Shown here: piece by piece, positions 22,236 through 28,712 of the stretch
Numbering within the stretch: the first letter of the stretch is position 1
Layout of the letters: every line of letters starts with the position of its first letter
Assembly: GCA_947495915.1 (NCBI GenBank)
Contig: CANMAW010000003.1
Span: forward strand, 248,001 to 312,000
Reading direction: 5' to 3'
DNA: 64,000 bases
Source of the DNA: Maribacter algarum (ex Lu et al. 2025) (nom. illeg.)
GTDB lineage: Bacteria; Bacteroidota; Bacteroidia; Flavobacteriales; Flavobacteriaceae
Program-made: the position numbers and the translations under genes
The notes under the pieces: model-generated
Told to the model about the DNA's origin: nothing
Seen by the model: the letters and a program-made list of their open reading frames with translations, nothing else
The model's database searches: none

Positions 22236-22279
22236 TTGTTTAACTAAAACATAAAAAAGTTAAACATTATGTATATTTG
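22236..22279 (+). promoter_or_regulatory. operator-promoter of the photolyase operon
   Basis: TTGTTTAAC at 22236-22244 and GTTAAAC at 22259-22265 form an inverted pair offset by 21 bp. Six bases after the second half-site lies TATATTTG (22272-22279), a perfect TAnnTTTG. There is no good TTG at the -33 position, so an activator or long-spacer mechanism is possible. The same pair at the same spacing occurs before the TetR-like gene (26661-26690). Confidence 0.65.
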
Positions 22280-22324
22280 TATTATCAACAAGCATTCCTA
22301 ATGCTAATCTTAATCATCAGAAGT

Positions 22325-22492
22325 ATGTTCGGATTATTTAAAAAGAAATCAGAAAAGCAAAAGTTGCAAGATCAATACGAAGCACTGTTAAATGAAGCGC
22401 ATAAACTATCTACAACCAACCGAAAATTGAGTGACCAGAAAGTTTATGAAGCAGAAGAAATCATGAAGCAATTAGAAAAATTGATGAATTAG
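22325..22492 (+). CDS. Lacal_2735 family small protein
   Basis: This is a 55-residue charged helical protein beginning MFGLFKKKSEKQKLQ and ending in a coiled-coil-like stretch rich in Glu, Lys and Leu. It matches what I know as the Lacal_2735 family of flavobacteria, whose function is unknown. I chose the ATG at MFGLFKK; the frame is open upstream, but the added residues overlap the promoter. It is the first gene of the photolyase operon, about 45 bases after the -7 element. Confidence 0.8.
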   Translation: MFGLFKKKSEKQKLQDQYEALLNEAHKLSTTNRKLSDQKVYEAEEIMKQLEKLMN

Positions 22493-22504
22493 ATTGTACT
22501 GTAA

Positions 22505-22906
22505 ATGAAAGAAGTAAAAAAACCTGATAATGTAGTTTTCGATTCAAATACCCAAACGTACGACGCTTCACTTAAGCCTTATGCAACTTCTTTGGGGGCA
22601 CCATCAATAAAATCAACAGATACTATTGCCTGGAAAAACAGAAGCATAAATAAAATTAATCACAAGGTTAAAGCGAAGTATTTAGAGCTTAAAAAGGAAT
22701 ACGAAAACATGAAACAAGAGTTGGCGTATAACCAAATGATATATGATGCGAAATTTAATTTTGAGCCTATTAGCGGTGAAATATATCACTTATACCAAAG
22801 AGCGAATGGCGAAACTTTTCTCTCTATCATTGCCCCTGAGCAATGTAGCTTTAATGCGATAGGCAGTTTTTATTTGAATGTAGATCAAATTTGGGAGAAA
22901 ATATAG
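22505..22906 (+). CDS. DUF2452 domain-containing protein
   Basis: This is a 133-residue cytoplasmic protein. The conserved features of DUF2452 are visible: KPDNVVFD at the N-terminus, LKPYATSLGAPSIKSTDTIAWK, a central helix, and IYHLYQRANGETFLSIIAPEQC near the end. The function is unknown. It is 12 bases after Lacal_2735 and 5 bases before the next gene, so it is part of the operon with two photolyase-like flavoproteins. Confidence 0.85.
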   Translation: MKEVKKPDNVVFDSNTQTYDASLKPYATSLGAPSIKSTDTIAWKNRSINKINHKVKAKYLELKKEYENMKQELAYNQMIYDAKFNFEPISGEIYHLYQRANGETFLSIIAPEQCSFNAIGSFYLNVDQIWEKI

Positions 22907-22911
22907 TATCT

Positions 22912-23199
22912 ATGACCGTTGGTAAACAATTTACAGAAAGAGAACTCGATAGAATTATAGAAATGGCATGGGAAGATCGTACACCTTTTGAAGCCATTTT
23001 ATTTCAGTTTGGTTTACCAGAAAAAGAGGTCATCAAATTAATGCGAACACACTTAAAAGAGTCCAGTTTTAAAAGATGGCGAAAACGAGTGAATAGCGGA
23101 GTTAGTCAAAAACATTTGAAAAAACGAAATGCTAATATTTCTCGCTTCAAGTGTTCTAGGCAAAAAGCGATTTCAGGAAATAAAATAAGTAAACGATAA
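22912..23199 (+). CDS. TIGR03643 family protein
   Basis: This is a 95-residue basic protein. The N-terminal FTERELDRIIEMAWEDRTPF followed by FGLPEKEVIKLMR is an HTH-like pair of helices typical of TIGR03643, and SSFKRWRKRV follows. The C-terminal tail is strongly basic, which suggests nucleic-acid contact. I use the ATG of MTVGKQF; an ATG at 22891 would overlap DUF2452. Its stop overlaps the photolyase start by one base (TAATG). Confidence 0.82.
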   Translation: MTVGKQFTERELDRIIEMAWEDRTPFEAILFQFGLPEKEVIKLMRTHLKESSFKRWRKRVNSGVSQKHLKKRNANISRFKCSRQKAISGNKISKR

Positions 23200-24317
23200 T
23201 GCAATTATTGGATCATCACCATCCCGTTTTTTCAACATCTTATGCTGATGTTCTTAAACGTATTGATGAAATTGATCCTGTACGATACGGTGCTACACGT
23301 AATTTCTTAAATGGCGCTGTCACCTACTTATCGCCCTATATTTCAAGAGGAATCGTTTCTACAAAATTTATACTTGCTGAAGTTTTAAATCGCGGTTTTA
23401 AGCCTCATCAAATTGAAAAATTTATTCAAGAATTAGCATGGAGAGATTATTGGCAACAAATATGGATCGTTAAAGGTAATGCTATAAATGAGAGCTTAAA
23501 GCACGCACAAAAGCCTATTACTAATTATGCTATTTCAAAAGCTATACTTGATGCTAATACCGGTATAAATGCTTTAGACGATGGCGTTAGCAGCTTATAT
23601 GAAACAGGCTATATGCACAATCATTTACGAATGTATGTAGCAGCTCTTGCCTGTAATATCGGTCAAAGTCATTGGAAAGCACCCGCCCAATGGATGTATT
23701 TTCATCTATTAGACGCAGATTGGGCTAGCAACGCGCTTAGTTGGCAATGGGTATCAGGGGCGAACGCTAATAAAAAATATGTAGCCAATCAAGACAACAT
23801 TAATAAATTCTGTTTCACTAAGCAATCAGGCACCTTTTTAGATGTGGCTTATGAGGAATTTGCTGTAATGGATATTCCCGAAGCCCTAAAGCATACAACA
23901 AATCTAGACCTAACTACTCCCCTACCTACAACAACCGCTGTTGAGATTAACGAAGCATTACCTACGTGTATTTATAATTTTTATAATCTTGATCCGCTTT
24001 GGAAAAAAGATATTTTGGCCAATCGAATACTCCTGTTAGAACCTTCGCATTTTAACCAGTACCCCATCTCTCAAAAAACACTTGATTTTATAATATCCTT
24101 CTCCAAAGAAAACATCCCTAACATTCAAATCTATACAGGGGAATTTAACAGCTTGAAATCAGAGCATAGCACGCGTACAGTTTTCTATAAAGAGCACCCC
24201 TTAAATGAACATTATGTAGGTATTGAAGATTCACGAGATTGGATGTTTAATGTGCAAGGCTATTACCCCTCTTTCTTTTCCTTTTGGAAAAAATGCAAAA
24301 AACAACTTCATTATTGA
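23199..24317 (+). CDS. photolyase/cryptochrome-like FAD-binding protein lacking the N-terminal antenna domain
   Basis: This 372-residue flavoprotein has the photolyase FAD domain at residues 1-235. Signatures are RGATRN-like YGATRNFLNGAVTYLSPYISRG (near 30-51), ELAWRDYW (78-85), ETGYMHNHLRMYVA (135-148), and DADWASNALSWQWVSG (172-187). The usual N-terminal Rossmann domain is absent. Instead, residues about 255-365 form a separate alpha/beta-looking region (ANRILLLEPSHF). It may repair DNA or sense light; this cannot be told from sequence. It is in an operon with a second photolyase and a flavin reductase. Confidence 0.82.
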   Translation: MQLLDHHHPVFSTSYADVLKRIDEIDPVRYGATRNFLNGAVTYLSPYISRGIVSTKFILAEVLNRGFKPHQIEKFIQELAWRDYWQQIWIVKGNAINESLKHAQKPITNYAISKAILDANTGINALDDGVSSLYETGYMHNHLRMYVAALACNIGQSHWKAPAQWMYFHLLDADWASNALSWQWVSGANANKKYVANQDNINKFCFTKQSGTFLDVAYEEFAVMDIPEALKHTTNLDLTTPLPTTTAVEINEALPTCIYNFYNLDPLWKKDILANRILLLEPSHFNQYPISQKTLDFIISFSKENIPNIQIYTGEFNSLKSEHSTRTVFYKEHPLNEHYVGIEDSRDWMFNVQGYYPSFFSFWKKCKKQLHY

Positions 24318-24364
24318 AAACCTGCTATGAATCGAACAGCAAACACCAACTTACAAAAGGTAAA

Positions 24365-24991
24365 ATGACATATACGAAAGAAGATATTGAAAAGCTAGAC
24401 CGTATTGCTAGATTGAAAATTATAAATTCAGTTACAGGTATTAAACCTGCAAATCTGATCGGTACCATAAATAGTCAAGGCCAAACAAACCTAGCCATCT
24501 TTAGCTCTGTTGTTCATTTAGGAAGCAACCCTGCCCTATTAGGCATTATTTGTAGGCCACAAACTGCTGAAGTCGGACACACCTACAGAAATATCAAGGA
24601 AACTAAAGTATACACGATTAATCATATTCATCCAGAATTTATTAAAAATGCTCATTATACTTCTGCGAAATTTGATGCAGCAATATCTGAATTTAAACGT
24701 TGCAATTTATCCGAAGAACATATTCCTAATTTTAAAGCGCCATTTGTAAAAGAAAGTACATTTAAAATCGGAATGCGTTTTAAAGAGGCTCTAAATATTG
24801 AGCAAAACGGCACTATCTTAGTTATTGGTGAAATTGAACATCTTGTGCTACCTGATAATTGCTTTGTTGATGATGATATTGATTTAGAGCTTAGCAACAG
24901 TGTCGGTATTTCTGGCTTGAATTCTTACTACGCCTTAAGAAAGATTAAAAAGCACCCCTTTGTAAGGGTGCATGAAGTACCAAAATTTTGA
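24365..24991 (+). CDS. flavin reductase-like domain protein
   Basis: This 208-residue protein belongs to the flavin reductase/FMN-binding split-barrel family. The family pattern is visible in [41 protein letters not shown], with further [10 protein letters not shown] near the C-terminus. It could supply reduced flavin to the photolyases or bind FMN itself. The ATG of MTYTKED fits; an earlier ATG lies inside the upstream gene. The gap to the upstream gene is 47 bases, and DUF2256 follows after 2. Confidence 0.82.
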
Positions 24992-24993
24992 AA

Positions 24994-25122
24994 ATGAAGA
25001 AAACCTTTCTTCCTCAAAAAATATGCGTCACCTGTCAACGCCCTTTTAGATGGCGTAAAAAATGGGAAAAGAATTGGAATGAAGTTAAATATTGTAGCGA
25101 ACGTTGTAGAAGAAATAAATGA
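24994..25122 (+). CDS. DUF2256 small zinc-ribbon protein
   Basis: This is a 42-residue protein, shorter than most gene callers accept. It holds two cysteine pairs, CVTCQRPF and YCSERCR, separated by a Trp/Lys-rich segment ([13 protein letters not shown]), which is the DUF2256 pattern and probably binds zinc. Its stop overlaps the ATG of the next gene (ATGA), so it is translationally coupled to the (6-4) photolyase-like gene. DUF2256 is often found beside photolyases; its role is unknown. Confidence 0.88.
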
Positions 25123-26603
25123 AAGAGATTAGCCTTGTATTTCCGCATCAATTATTTCAAGAATCTCCCATATTTGAATATGATAACCCGGTTTATCTCG
25201 TGGAAGAATACTTGTTTTTTAAACAATACCCTTTCCATAAACAAAAAATAGGATTTCATAGGGCTACCATGAAAAGGTATGCTGATTATATTCAGGAACA
25301 TAAAAAACTCAAGGTTCATTATATTGAAGCTACTGAAGACCTGTCAGATATTCGAAAACTCATTCCTGCGTTAAAACAGCAAGGCATTGAGCACATTTAT
25401 TATATAAACCCTACAGATAATTGGCTTCAATTAAGATTGCAAAAAGGCTTACTTGAAAATAACATTGCATCTACCCAACATGAAACGAAATTATTCATAA
25501 ATCATAGGGATGAAATAGCTAACTTTTTTAGAGCGGATAAAAAAAAGTATCACCAGACCACCTTTTACAAAGAACAACGCAAAAAACGTAATATTCTTTT
25601 AGCTGCTGATGATGAACCAAAAGGAGGAAAATGGACCTTTGATTCTGAAAACAGAAAAAAATATCCTGCTAAGAAGACTCCCCCACCCGTTCAATTTCCT
25701 GATGTTAATCATTACTATACCGAAGCAAAAGAATATGTTGAAACCCACTTTCAGCATCATTTAGGTCATATTACGGAACAATCTTTATATCCCATTAGTT
25801 TTGAAGCTACGCAGTCATGGCTTGACCAATTTTTTGAGCAACGTTTTATGGAGTTTGGCACCTACGAAGACGCCATTGTTTCCGAAAATTCTATTCTAAA
25901 CCATAGTGTTTTAAGCCCCTTGCTTAACGTCGGTTTAATTACCCCTAATGAAGTTATAAAAGCATCATTATTGTTTGCCGAAGAAAACAATGTACCGATT
26001 AACAGCACCGAAGGTTTTATACGTCAAATTATAGGTTGGCGAGAATTTATAAGAGGTATTTATGAAGCTAGAGGCAGTGAAGAACGAACCGAAAATTTTT
26101 GGAAATTCACCAAAAAAATACCAGCATCTTTTTATGATGGCACCACAGGAATACCACCCATAGACCAAACCATAAAAAAGATATTAAGAACAGGGTATTG
26201 CCACCATATTGAACGCCTGATGATTCTGGGCAATTTTATGATGTTATGCGAATTTGACCCTGACGAAGTTTATAAATGGTTTATGGAACTTTTTATTGAT
26301 GCTTACGATTGGGTGATGGTACCAAATATATACGGAATGAGTCAATTCGCCGATGGTGGATTAATGGCAACCAAACCCTATATAAGTGGTAGTAATTATC
26401 TCATGAAAATGAGCAATTTTAAGAAAGGGGAATGGCAACCCACCTGGGATGGACTTTTTTGGCGGTTTATGCATACGCATCGTGATTTTTTTCTTTCGAA
26501 CCCGAGACTCAGCATGCTTGTACGTATGTATGATAAGATGCCTCAAGACAAAAAAGACCTGCATCTTCAATATGGGAATAAGTTTTTGAACACTCTTGGT
26601 TAG
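25119..26603 (+). CDS. (6-4) photolyase/cryptochrome of the FeS-BCP type, without cluster cysteines
   Basis: This 494-residue flavoprotein resembles bacterial (6-4) photolyases (PhrB, deoxyribodipyrimidine photolyase-related). The N-terminal Rossmann domain starts [11 protein letters not shown]. The FAD domain shows [18 protein letters not shown] (298-315), [14 protein letters not shown] (360-373), with the active-site His pair, and [13 protein letters not shown] (402-414). PhrB has four 4Fe-4S cysteines; here the protein has only Cys361 and Cys377 and neither is at a ligand position. It ends the seven-gene operon. Confidence 0.9.
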
Positions 26604-26660
26604 TGTAACCTCTGCAGTTCACCTTATATTACCAATATAAGCCGCTTAATTTGTTAAATT

Positions 26661-26703
26661 TTGTTTAACTATAACTGAAATAAATTAAACAAATATTATC
26701 TTG
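26661..26703 (+). promoter_or_regulatory. second copy of the composite operator, upstream of the TetR-like gene
   Basis: TTGTTTAAC at 26661-26669 and ATTAAAC at 26684-26690, half-sites offset by 21 bp exactly as at 22238/22259. A weak -7 candidate, TATCTTG, begins at 26697, the same distance after the second half-site as in the first copy. The coding start is at 26724. Confidence 0.6.
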
Positions 26704-26723
26704 CAATAAATCAGCAGGGTAAA

Positions 26724-27389
26724 ATGGCAAAGAAAAAAGTAGTAACAAAGCAGCAGCTAATTTCATGGTACATGAACTTTGTTCTTGAAAATAACGAACA
26801 ACCCAAATCGGTTTATTTGTTTTCAAAGTCAAACGGTTTTGAAGAAGTGAAATTCTATGAATTTTTCAATTCATTTGAATCTTTAGAGAAATCCATATTT
26901 TCTGCATTTTTTGAAAATACTTTGAAGGCGCTTCACAAAAGTGATGCGTATGATTCTTTTGATGCCCGTAATAAATTGCTAAGCTTCTACTTTACATTTT
27001 TTGAAAATCTTACTGCCAACAGAAGCTATGTAGTGTATTCTCTAAAAAAACATAAAAACAATTTGAAAAGTTTAGCGCAACTAGCTTCGTTAAAAGCCAA
27101 TTTCACAGGTTACATCGATGAATTAAAGATTGAGACTATAGATATTAGGCAAGAACAAGTAAGTAAAGTTCAACAACGCGCGCTGAAAGAGTCTGCTTGG
27201 TTACAATTACTTTTGACCATGAAATTTTGGTTAGATGACTCTTCTTCTTCATTTGAAAAAACAGATATTTTCATTGAAAAATCTGTAAACACCAGTTTTG
27301 ACATTTTAAATATTGCTCCTTTAAAAAGTGTTATTGATTTTGGGAAGTTTATTTTCAAAGAGACAATACAAATGAAACAAAACATGTAA
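26724..27389 (+). CDS. TetR-like transcriptional regulator
   Basis: This is a 221-residue all-helical protein. The N-terminal 60 residues fit a TetR helix-turn-helix in divergent form (TKQQLISWYMNFVLENNEQPKSVYLF, then the recognition-helix region before FYEFFNSFESLEKSIF). The rest matches the flavobacterial TetR C-terminal domain. It directly abuts the ABC1 kinase gene (no gap). The operator-like element in front of it also lies before the photolyase operon, so auto-regulation plus control of that operon is a reasonable hypothesis. Confidence 0.72.
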   Translation: MAKKKVVTKQQLISWYMNFVLENNEQPKSVYLFSKSNGFEEVKFYEFFNSFESLEKSIFSAFFENTLKALHKSDAYDSFDARNKLLSFYFTFFENLTANRSYVVYSLKKHKNNLKSLAQLASLKANFTGYIDELKIETIDIRQEQVSKVQQRALKESAWLQLLLTMKFWLDDSSSSFEKTDIFIEKSVNTSFDILNIAPLKSVIDFGKFIFKETIQMKQNM

Positions 27390-28712
27390 ATGAAAACAAT
27401 TGATAACATTCCAATTTCAAAATTACAGCGTACTTCAAAACTATTATCTACAGGAGCAAAAGTCGGGGTAAATTATATCAAGTATTACGGAGACAAACTA
27501 ACAAAATCAGAGAATGATGCAAGGTCAAAATTAAACGAAAACAACGCAGAAGATATTTATGATGGACTAAAACAACTCAAAGGTAGTGCACTTAAAGTTG
27601 CACAAATGCTGAGCATGGAAAAAAGTATTATTCCTCAAGCATATGTCGACAAATTTTCTTTAGCTCAATTTTCAGTCCCCCCCTTGTCACCACCTTTAGT
27701 CATCAAAACTTTCCAAAAGTATTTTGGAAAGTCGCCCAACGAGTTATTTGATTTTTTTGACAATACTTCTGTGAATGCAGCAAGTATTGGTCAAGTACAT
27801 TTAGCAGAGAAAAATGGAAAAAAACTTGCTGTAAAAATTCAATATCCAGGAGTTGCTCAAAGCATCTCTTCAGATCTCGCACTTGTAAAGCCTATTGCTA
27901 TGAAAATGTTTAACATTAAAGGGGAAGGATCTGATAAATACTTTAAAGAAGTTGAGGGGAAACTTTTAGAAGAGACGAATTACAATCTAGAAATTGCACA
28001 AAGCGAAGAAATTTCTAATGCTTGCAAACACATACCTAATCTTTTATTTCCGAATTACTACCCTGAATGGTCGTCAGATAGAGTAATAACAATGGATTAC
28101 ATGAAGGGTGAGCATTTATCAGAATTTACAGCACATAATACAGATGAAATAAAATCACAACATTTAGGCCAAGCACTTTGGGATTTTTACATGTTCCAGA
28201 TTCATGAGTTAAGAAAAGTACATGCTGATCCGCATCCTGGTAATTTCTTAGTAACTGAAAATGGAAAACTAGTTGCCCTAGATTTTGGCTGTATGAAATC
28301 AATTCCCAATGATTTCTACATTCCTTATTTCGATTTTTTAAAAACCGAAAACATTGATAATCAAGAAGTTTTTAGGTCCAAACTTTATGAGTTAGAAATT
28401 TTGAGAGTTGATGATTCAAAAGATGAAGTTGAATTCTTTTCCGAAATGTTTCATGAGTTATTAAGCACCTTTACTAAACCTTTTCAAACAGAAACTTTTG
28501 ACTTTTCTAATGGAGATTTTTTTGGCAAACTTTCCGATTTAGGAGAACGATATTCTAACAGCAAAGAGTTACGCAAGATGAATGGTAACAGAGGATCAAA
28601 GCACTTTATTTATATGAACAGAACTTTTTTTGGTTTATATAATTTAATGTTTGATTTGAAAGCAAAGAATATTAAGATTAATAATTTCACTGAACTCCCA
28701 AAAACTCAATAG
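27390..28712 (+). CDS. ABC1/AarF (UbiB-like) atypical kinase
   Basis: This 440-residue protein-kinase-like ATPase belongs to the family linked to isoprenoid quinone metabolism. KGSALKVAQMLSM (64-76) is the KxGQ-type motif, ASIGQVHLAEKNGKKLAVKIQYPG holds the A-rich loop and VAIK-type lysine, and HADPHPGNFL plus LDFGCMK are the catalytic and metal-binding motifs. The start codon follows the TetR stop without a gap, so the pair is co-transcribed. No ubi or men genes are near; coupling to a light-responsive regulator is unusual. Confidence 0.87.
   Translation: MKTIDNIPISKLQRTSKLLSTGAKVGVNYIKYYGDKLTKSENDARSKLNENNAEDIYDGLKQLKGSALKVAQMLSMEKSIIPQAYVDKFSLAQFSVPPLSPPLVIKTFQKYFGKSPNELFDFFDNTSVNAASIGQVHLAEKNGKKLAVKIQYPGVAQSISSDLALVKPIAMKMFNIKGEGSDKYFKEVEGKLLEETNYNLEIAQSEEISNACKHIPNLLFPNYYPEWSSDRVITMDYMKGEHLSEFTAHNTDEIKSQHLGQALWDFYMFQIHELRKVHADPHPGNFLVTENGKLVALDFGCMKSIPNDFYIPYFDFLKTENIDNQEVFRSKLYELEILRVDDSKDEVEFFSEMFHELLSTFTKPFQTETFDFSNGDFFGKLSDLGERYSNSKELRKMNGNRGSKHFIYMNRTFFGLYNLMFDLKAKNIKINNFTELPKTQ

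Follow-up and report, generated by a model that had tools for sequence, protein, structure and literature searches.

The window analysed here, a 64-kb stretch of the Maribacter algarum genome, carries a seven-gene operon encoding two photolyase-like proteins, followed on the same strand by a gene pair for a TetR-fold protein and an ABC1 kinase, and it is the short inverted repeat in the leaders of both that concerns us. A first-pass annotation had noticed these elements at 22236 and 26661, and both are indeed found there; its names for the seven operon genes agree with Pfam and NCBIfam, the overlaps it described (1 base at 23199, 4 bases at 25119-25122) are real, and the TetR-like protein, in which Pfam/NCBIfam match only the C-terminal domain TetR_C_23, does come after the operon together with ABC1. 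The features are given below, with protein assignments from Pfam/NCBIfam.

22236..22265, plus strand: putative operator 1, TTGTTTAACTAAAACATAAAAAAGTTAAAC; inverted repeat TTGTTTAAC...GTTAAACA with TAAACA boxes, 18 bp separating TTGTTTA and TAAACA
22272..22279, plus strand: -7-like promoter element, TATATTTG, 7 bp past operator 1; fits TAnnTTTG
22325..22492, plus strand: Lacal_2735/DUF6435 small protein, first gene of the operon
22505..22906, plus strand: DUF2452 protein
22912..23199, plus strand: TIGR03643/DUF2805 protein
23199..24317, plus strand: photolyase-like protein, FAD domain only
24365..24991, plus strand: flavin reductase-like protein
24994..25122, plus strand: DUF2256 protein
25119..26603, plus strand: cryptochrome/(6-4)-photolyase-like protein, DPRP and FAD domains
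26661..26690, plus strand: putative operator 2, TTGTTTAACTATAACTGAAATAAATTAAAC; geometry identical to that of operator 1
26697..26704, plus strand: -7-like element, TATCTTGC, 7 bp past operator 2; imperfect fit
26724..27389, plus strand: TetR-fold protein, PF17931 (TetR_C_23); putative target of operator 2, probably not the operator's reader
27390..28712, plus strand: ABC1/UbiB-family atypical kinase, whose start codon follows directly on the stop codon of TetR and in the same frame

Whilst the half-sites had been described as two copies of one word, they form an inverted repeat, with TTGTTTAAC on the left and GTTAAACA on the right. The proposal that two copies of the same geometry would hardly arise by chance is borne out: GTTTAACN14RTTAAAC has three strand-wise matches in the window, which count as two places because the first site has palindromic arms, whereas 100 dinucleotide shuffles of the same 64 kb averaged 0.00, and across the 4.17-Mb genome it has five strand-wise matches at four places, with none for the reversed control. 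The -7-like element proposed to follow the second half-site by 7 bp is present in both leaders, TATATTTG fitting the consensus TAnnTTTG and TATCTTGC doing so imperfectly.

How far does this element extend beyond the window? For genome surveys we used a stricter pattern, TTGTTTAACT-N13-RTTAAAC, which is present in both window leaders, with the reversed pattern as control. It gave 34 matches in 21 genomes among 79 relatives (control 0), and 128 strand-wise matches in 88 genomes among 393 of the order (control 6). A phylum sample of 198 genomes, only two of them from the order's other families, contained the element in 12, all among the 20 genomes of the window's family, and in none of the 178 others (control 1). 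The annotation had staked its claim on conservation at orthologous leaders, and for the TetR gene this stands: in the leaders of the best 80 orthologues from 308 relatives, scanned with fixed spacing only, the element is present with at most three mismatches in 80/80 and at most one in 51, at 29-36 bp before the start codon, with the consensus TGTTaAaTTTTGTTTAAc-N13-gTTAAACATTTTGTATcTTta. For the photolyase operon it stands only in part, since of 16 loci encoding an orthologue of the protein at 23199, 7 scored above the maximum of 48 shuffles, namely the window (itself a training site), L317, L318, L319, L323, and, with the element in a variant form, L325 and L326. The element is a near-palindrome and is met in both directions; the consensus of 17 crtI leaders is TTGTTTAACTTTT...TAtaTTTGTTAAACAA, and at 15 of them TAnnTTTG lies inside it.

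The genes beside the element recur. When 143 unique sites from the 79 relatives and 393 order genomes were classed by their flanking genes, a site between divergent genes counting for both, 127 adjoined at least one recurring family: TetR (34), crtI, fasciclin and ECF sigma (17 each), a TIGR01777-type SDR (13), a 142-amino-acid protein (11), a START-like protein (10), SDR (7), DUF2452 (6, the window's own included), TIGR03643 (4), htpG (3), and photolyase, flavin reductase and Lacal (1 each). The START/SRPBCC-like label is our own assumption, Pfam and NCBIfam giving no match, and the 142-amino-acid protein (L034:1562-1987 and ten other sites) is likewise without a match in either. By computation, then, the prediction that the element would precede crt, phytoene or photolyase genes in relatives holds. 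The window's own genome was scanned with a model, R1, built from 72 sites that include the two window sites, whose own scores (expectation value, E, 4.8e-5 for operator 1) are therefore circular. It places further sites before htpG (E 7e-5), an operon for START-like, SDR and photolyase proteins (1.5e-3), a mevalonate-locus gene for a GHMP kinase (4e-3) and a gene for a fasciclin (4.6e-3). The GHMP kinase gene, preceded by its element at G000:C1:1030122, adjoins a diphosphomevalonate decarboxylase-like gene, and light control of isoprenoid supply through this site is possible.

A candidate reader lies outside the window. The genome encodes two MerR_1 proteins, one of which has a B12-binding_2 domain and is the first gene (G000:C2:705,092-705,988) of a carH-crtI-crtB-crtZ operon, in which crtI is named by NCBIfam above cut-off, phytoene synthase by Pfam, and a member of the fatty-acid hydroxylase family is presumably CrtZ. 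The first protein contains an N-terminal MerR DNA-binding domain (PF13411, E 1.8e-13) and a four-helix bundle domain (PF02607); among 11 aligned orthologues the Wx9EH motif is kept in 11/11 and ExHxxG in 10/11, with ExHxxA in L032, and the best Protein Data Bank match of their profile is Thermus CarH (E 4.5e-19). We call the protein CarH-type, and not an equivalent of characterised CarH, because the NCBIfam CarH model NF052513 is its best match but scores 69.5 bits against a cut-off of 400. At 10 Arenibacter loci CarH and TetR-ABC1 share a strand, with CarH first and 239-434 bp between it and TetR. In family f7 and in G050, the ECF sigma gene is preceded by the element (L030, L213, L216, L220-L222, L224-L233), and at the places compared these ECF-type elements lie directly after CarH, so a CarH-sigma relay is possible there.

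The annotation had supposed a single regulator, either the TetR or a MerR/CarH-type protein encoded elsewhere, and it is the second alternative that computation supports. With the 393 order genomes called CarH-positive at E<=1e-20 and TetR-positive at E<=1e-10, the exact element occurs in 88/187 CarH-positive and 0/206 CarH-negative genomes (Fisher p 2.9e-35); by class, it is found in 74/128 genomes with both proteins, 14/59 with CarH only, 0/48 with TetR only and 0/158 with neither, counts that are confounded by relatedness because 46 of the 48 TetR-only genomes come from one family (f5). A further comparison took 501-bp stretches at TetR starts, scoring the element at any place and on either strand, from 20 chosen CarH-negative genomes (19 of them from f5) and 20 chosen CarH-positive genomes in which no exact copy occurs: scores above 7.1, the highest value in shuffles, were reached in 0/20 and 14/20, respectively (Mann-Whitney p 4e-5), a few of the CarH-positive matches (such as L292, L294, L298) lying more than 200 bp upstream.

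One might still propose the TetR-like protein encoded at 26724 as the operator's reader, repressing itself, ABC1 and the photolyase operon, as its gene comes immediately after operator 2 and the element recurs in all 80 of the closest TetR leaders. However, this alternative fails because none of the 48 genomes with TetR and no CarH has the element, whilst 14 of the 59 with CarH and no TetR do; the TetR-start stretches point the same way, and the recognition-helix region of the protein is acidic, with E41 in 81/81 sequences. We thus hold it to be very improbable. The TetR fold itself is well predicted (AlphaFold predicted local distance difference test, pLDDT, 86.6), the top Foldseek matches being TetR regulators (best E 1.1e-4), and beside its acidic recognition-helix region the protein has a predicted C-terminal helix. 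It is probably the operator's target, and perhaps the partner of ABC1, the role of reader being unlikely; it may not bind DNA at all and may work with the adjoining kinase, like COQ9, a TetR-fold protein that acts near COQ8. A COQ9-like reading was nevertheless set aside, only the TetR fold being established, with no COQ9 chain among the 50 of 646 Foldseek matches listed or among three profile matches. Candidate TetR-ABC1 fusion proteins (open frames of 658-666 amino acids) were also discarded, a single in-frame stop splitting the genes in 5/5 stretches inspected.

The element has a second form, met in four further families. The sequence TTGTATA...TATACAA was first seen in two photolyase leaders of family f8, in the same register as the TAAACA element. 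A search for TTGTATA-N18-TATACAA in 45 chosen genomes, including G054 and G067 in which the variant was first met, yielded 42 sites (reversed control 2): 40 in 15 of 17 chosen CarH-positive genomes of f6, f8, f11 and f15, one in 11 element-bearing f1 genomes, none in four f1 genomes with a lower-scoring CarH or in three genomes of f13/f14, and one in 10 CarH-negative genomes. CarH, crtI, fasciclin, START-like, photolyase, SDR or DUF2452 genes adjoin 30 of the 40 sites, and at two more (L367, L382) a single gene intervenes. The CarH recognition helix reads KAHTIR[IV]WE in 11/11 of the TAAACA group and [TN]K[FIL][VL][LI]RTWE at 11/11 loci of the TATACA group, a correspondence for which shared ancestry can account in part, as the groups may be separate branches. 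This pairing of box types with helix types hints at two CarH/operator pairs that would be orthogonal to each other. Both TAAACA and TATACA fit the published CarH box, TnnACA, which the available text describes in tandem 11-bp direct repeats (PMC9304148). At L350, L356, L369 and L370, the gene that follows the TATACA-type element encodes a small protein that contains cysteines (ACKNCGCRA or CRTCGCSA) and looks secreted, possibly a further target.

Could the element instead be part of a promoter for an alternative sigma factor, and no operator? Its distance to the -7-like element is fixed at the window leaders and at most TetR leaders, and ECF genes are among its recurring neighbours. Yet at the crtI leaders TAnnTTTG falls within the element, so that its place relative to the start point is not fixed, and a near-palindrome met in both directions that covaries with the CarH recognition helix sits poorly with such a role. 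On the occurrence in both directions and the crtI leaders we rejected a sigma-factor site, to which we would accord next to no probability.

We consider it likely that CarH is the operator's reader, a light-released dark repressor over carotenoids, photolyases and their partners in much of the Flavobacteriales. Computation has yielded a shared and conserved element, a recurrent gene set beside it, its co-occurrence with CarH, and the covariation of half-site and recognition helix. Both window leaders would be operators of one light regulon, read by the CarH/LitR-type MerR protein of the carH-crtI-crtB-crtZ operon. In the dark, CarH loaded with coenzyme B12 would occupy the inverted TAAACA boxes overlapping the promoter and block transcription; in the light, the Co-C bond would be broken and CarH released, allowing joint expression of the carotenoid genes, the photolyase/cryptochrome operons, flavin reductase, SDR, START-like, fasciclin, HtpG and TetR-fold/ABC1. 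We favour a repressor over an activator because the -7-like element lies 7 bp past the operator at the window leaders and inside it at most crtI leaders; judged from these sequences, promoter overlap at differing offsets would suit a repressor. Known CarH proteins are reported to form B12-bound oligomers that repress in the dark and to be released in the light (PMC8156234), and it is by analogy with them that B12 binding, light dependence and repression would be expected of the CarH-type protein.

Several observations weigh against this reading. The first concern the element: 99 of the 187 CarH-positive genomes are without an exact copy, and the kinship of the f5 genomes affects the comparison. 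None of the recurring families flanks 16 of the 143 sites, whose neighbours include a 73-amino-acid gene and two that we take to be folE-like and TspO-like, or 8 of the 40 variant sites (L348, L349, L350, L365, L368, L369, L370, L371). At nine of the 16 photolyase-operon loci no element was seen: at four of the same genus (L321, L322, L324, L331) the operon reaches the edge of the locus and its leader lies beyond, and in the other five (L320, L327-L330) the scan found none, L320 coming from a genome without CarH (G069). The organism's own carH-crt leader holds TTTGTTTAACTA, in which only the left half-site is good; its E of 0.33 ranks behind two unrelated places (0.26, 0.28), and own-genome matches with E >0.25 are indistinguishable from chance by score. 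Further points concern the protein, beyond its low NF052513 score: the B12 motif ExHx2G-x41-SxT/V-x22-27-GG is incomplete, SxT/V and GG being kept only in part; PF02310 (B12-binding) has no match in the window genome's CarH, and only a weak one, under cut-off, in a distant CarH; of the 11 TATACA loci, L351 is without Wx9EH and two are without ExHxxG/A in the aligned stretch; and AlphaFold gave no usable structure for an Arenibacter CarH (pLDDT 45). Finally, the residue beside the Trp of Wx9EH is Gln in 11/11 aligned CarH, at the position of the His that becomes the upper ligand in Thermus CarH.

Might CarH, then, read the element without sensing light itself, passing on B12 status or the signal of another photoreceptor, in the manner of class II LitR from Pseudomonas? 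The incomplete B12 motif and the Gln would agree with this, as would the partnership of class II LitR with a LOV protein, reported in the accessible part of PMC9758184. On the other hand, Wx9EH is kept in all 11 aligned proteins and at 10/11 TATACA loci, ExHxxG/A in 11/11 and at 9/11, and the upper-ligand position is reported to be variable, with Gln there in another cobalamin-dependent protein too, according to the available text of PMC11796333. We judge a non-sensing CarH unlikely.

The photolyase-like proteins of the window have features of their own. No N-terminal antenna domain was found in the 23199-24317 protein, about 170 C-terminal residues of which are without assignment, and the 25119-26603 protein aligns to an FeS-type (6-4) photolyase chain (7ykn) and possibly has no iron-sulfur cluster, because that chain's CxxC stretch is missing from its sequence. 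Elsewhere, in L027, the element faces a presumed folE-like gene, through which photolyases could be provided with their pterin antenna.

With the CarH of Thermus thermophilus, Bacillus (CarH-Bm) and Myxococcales (class I LitR), as far as the available descriptions go, the flavobacterial protein shares the MerR domain, the Wx9EH four-helix bundle, ExHxxG, a gene placed in the crt operon, and a promoter-overlapping operator of TnnACA boxes. It differs in having two inverted boxes with 18 bp between them, about two turns apart, whereas theirs are tandem 11-bp direct repeats, as well as in the Gln that replaces the upper-ligand His, the partial loss of SxT/GG, and the wider gene set. LitR class II of Pseudomonas putida and P. 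mendocina has comparable targets, with light-inducible photolyase, SDR, cryptochrome-like and folE genes (PMC9758184), a presumed folE-like gene being faced by one site here (L027); in contrast, the Pseudomonas protein keeps the four-helix bundle only, that of P. mendocina works with a LOV partner, and the binding consensus is T(G/A)TACA / TGTACA. For Chryseobacterium lacus, the accessible portion of PMC7064467 describes light-induced crt transcription and reports no car or lit genes; in our 393-genome survey family f5 has neither a CarH match nor the element, which agrees with this if f5 holds Chryseobacterium. Among the matches listed in the open-access literature, we found no report of a CarH regulon, or of an operator for CarH, in Bacteroidota.

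We would put forward, tentatively and at somewhat less than even confidence, that several families of the Flavobacteriales share a CarH photoregulon of new operator design: an inverted TnnACA pair on which two DNA-binding domains would face each other across about two turns, a B12 photochemistry without the bis-His product of Thermus, and a box and helix that would have drifted together from family to family at an unchanged spacing. The details of light-sensing systems for gene control in flavobacteria are described in PMC7064467 as poorly known. Many flavobacteria probably switch on their pigment genes jointly with those for the repair of sunlight damage and, if the proposal is true, one coenzyme-B12 photoreceptor would join carotenoids, photolyases and families of unknown function (DUF2452, TIGR03643, DUF2256, the 142-amino-acid protein and TetR-fold/ABC1) in a single response, and a function in light would become directly testable for each of these families.

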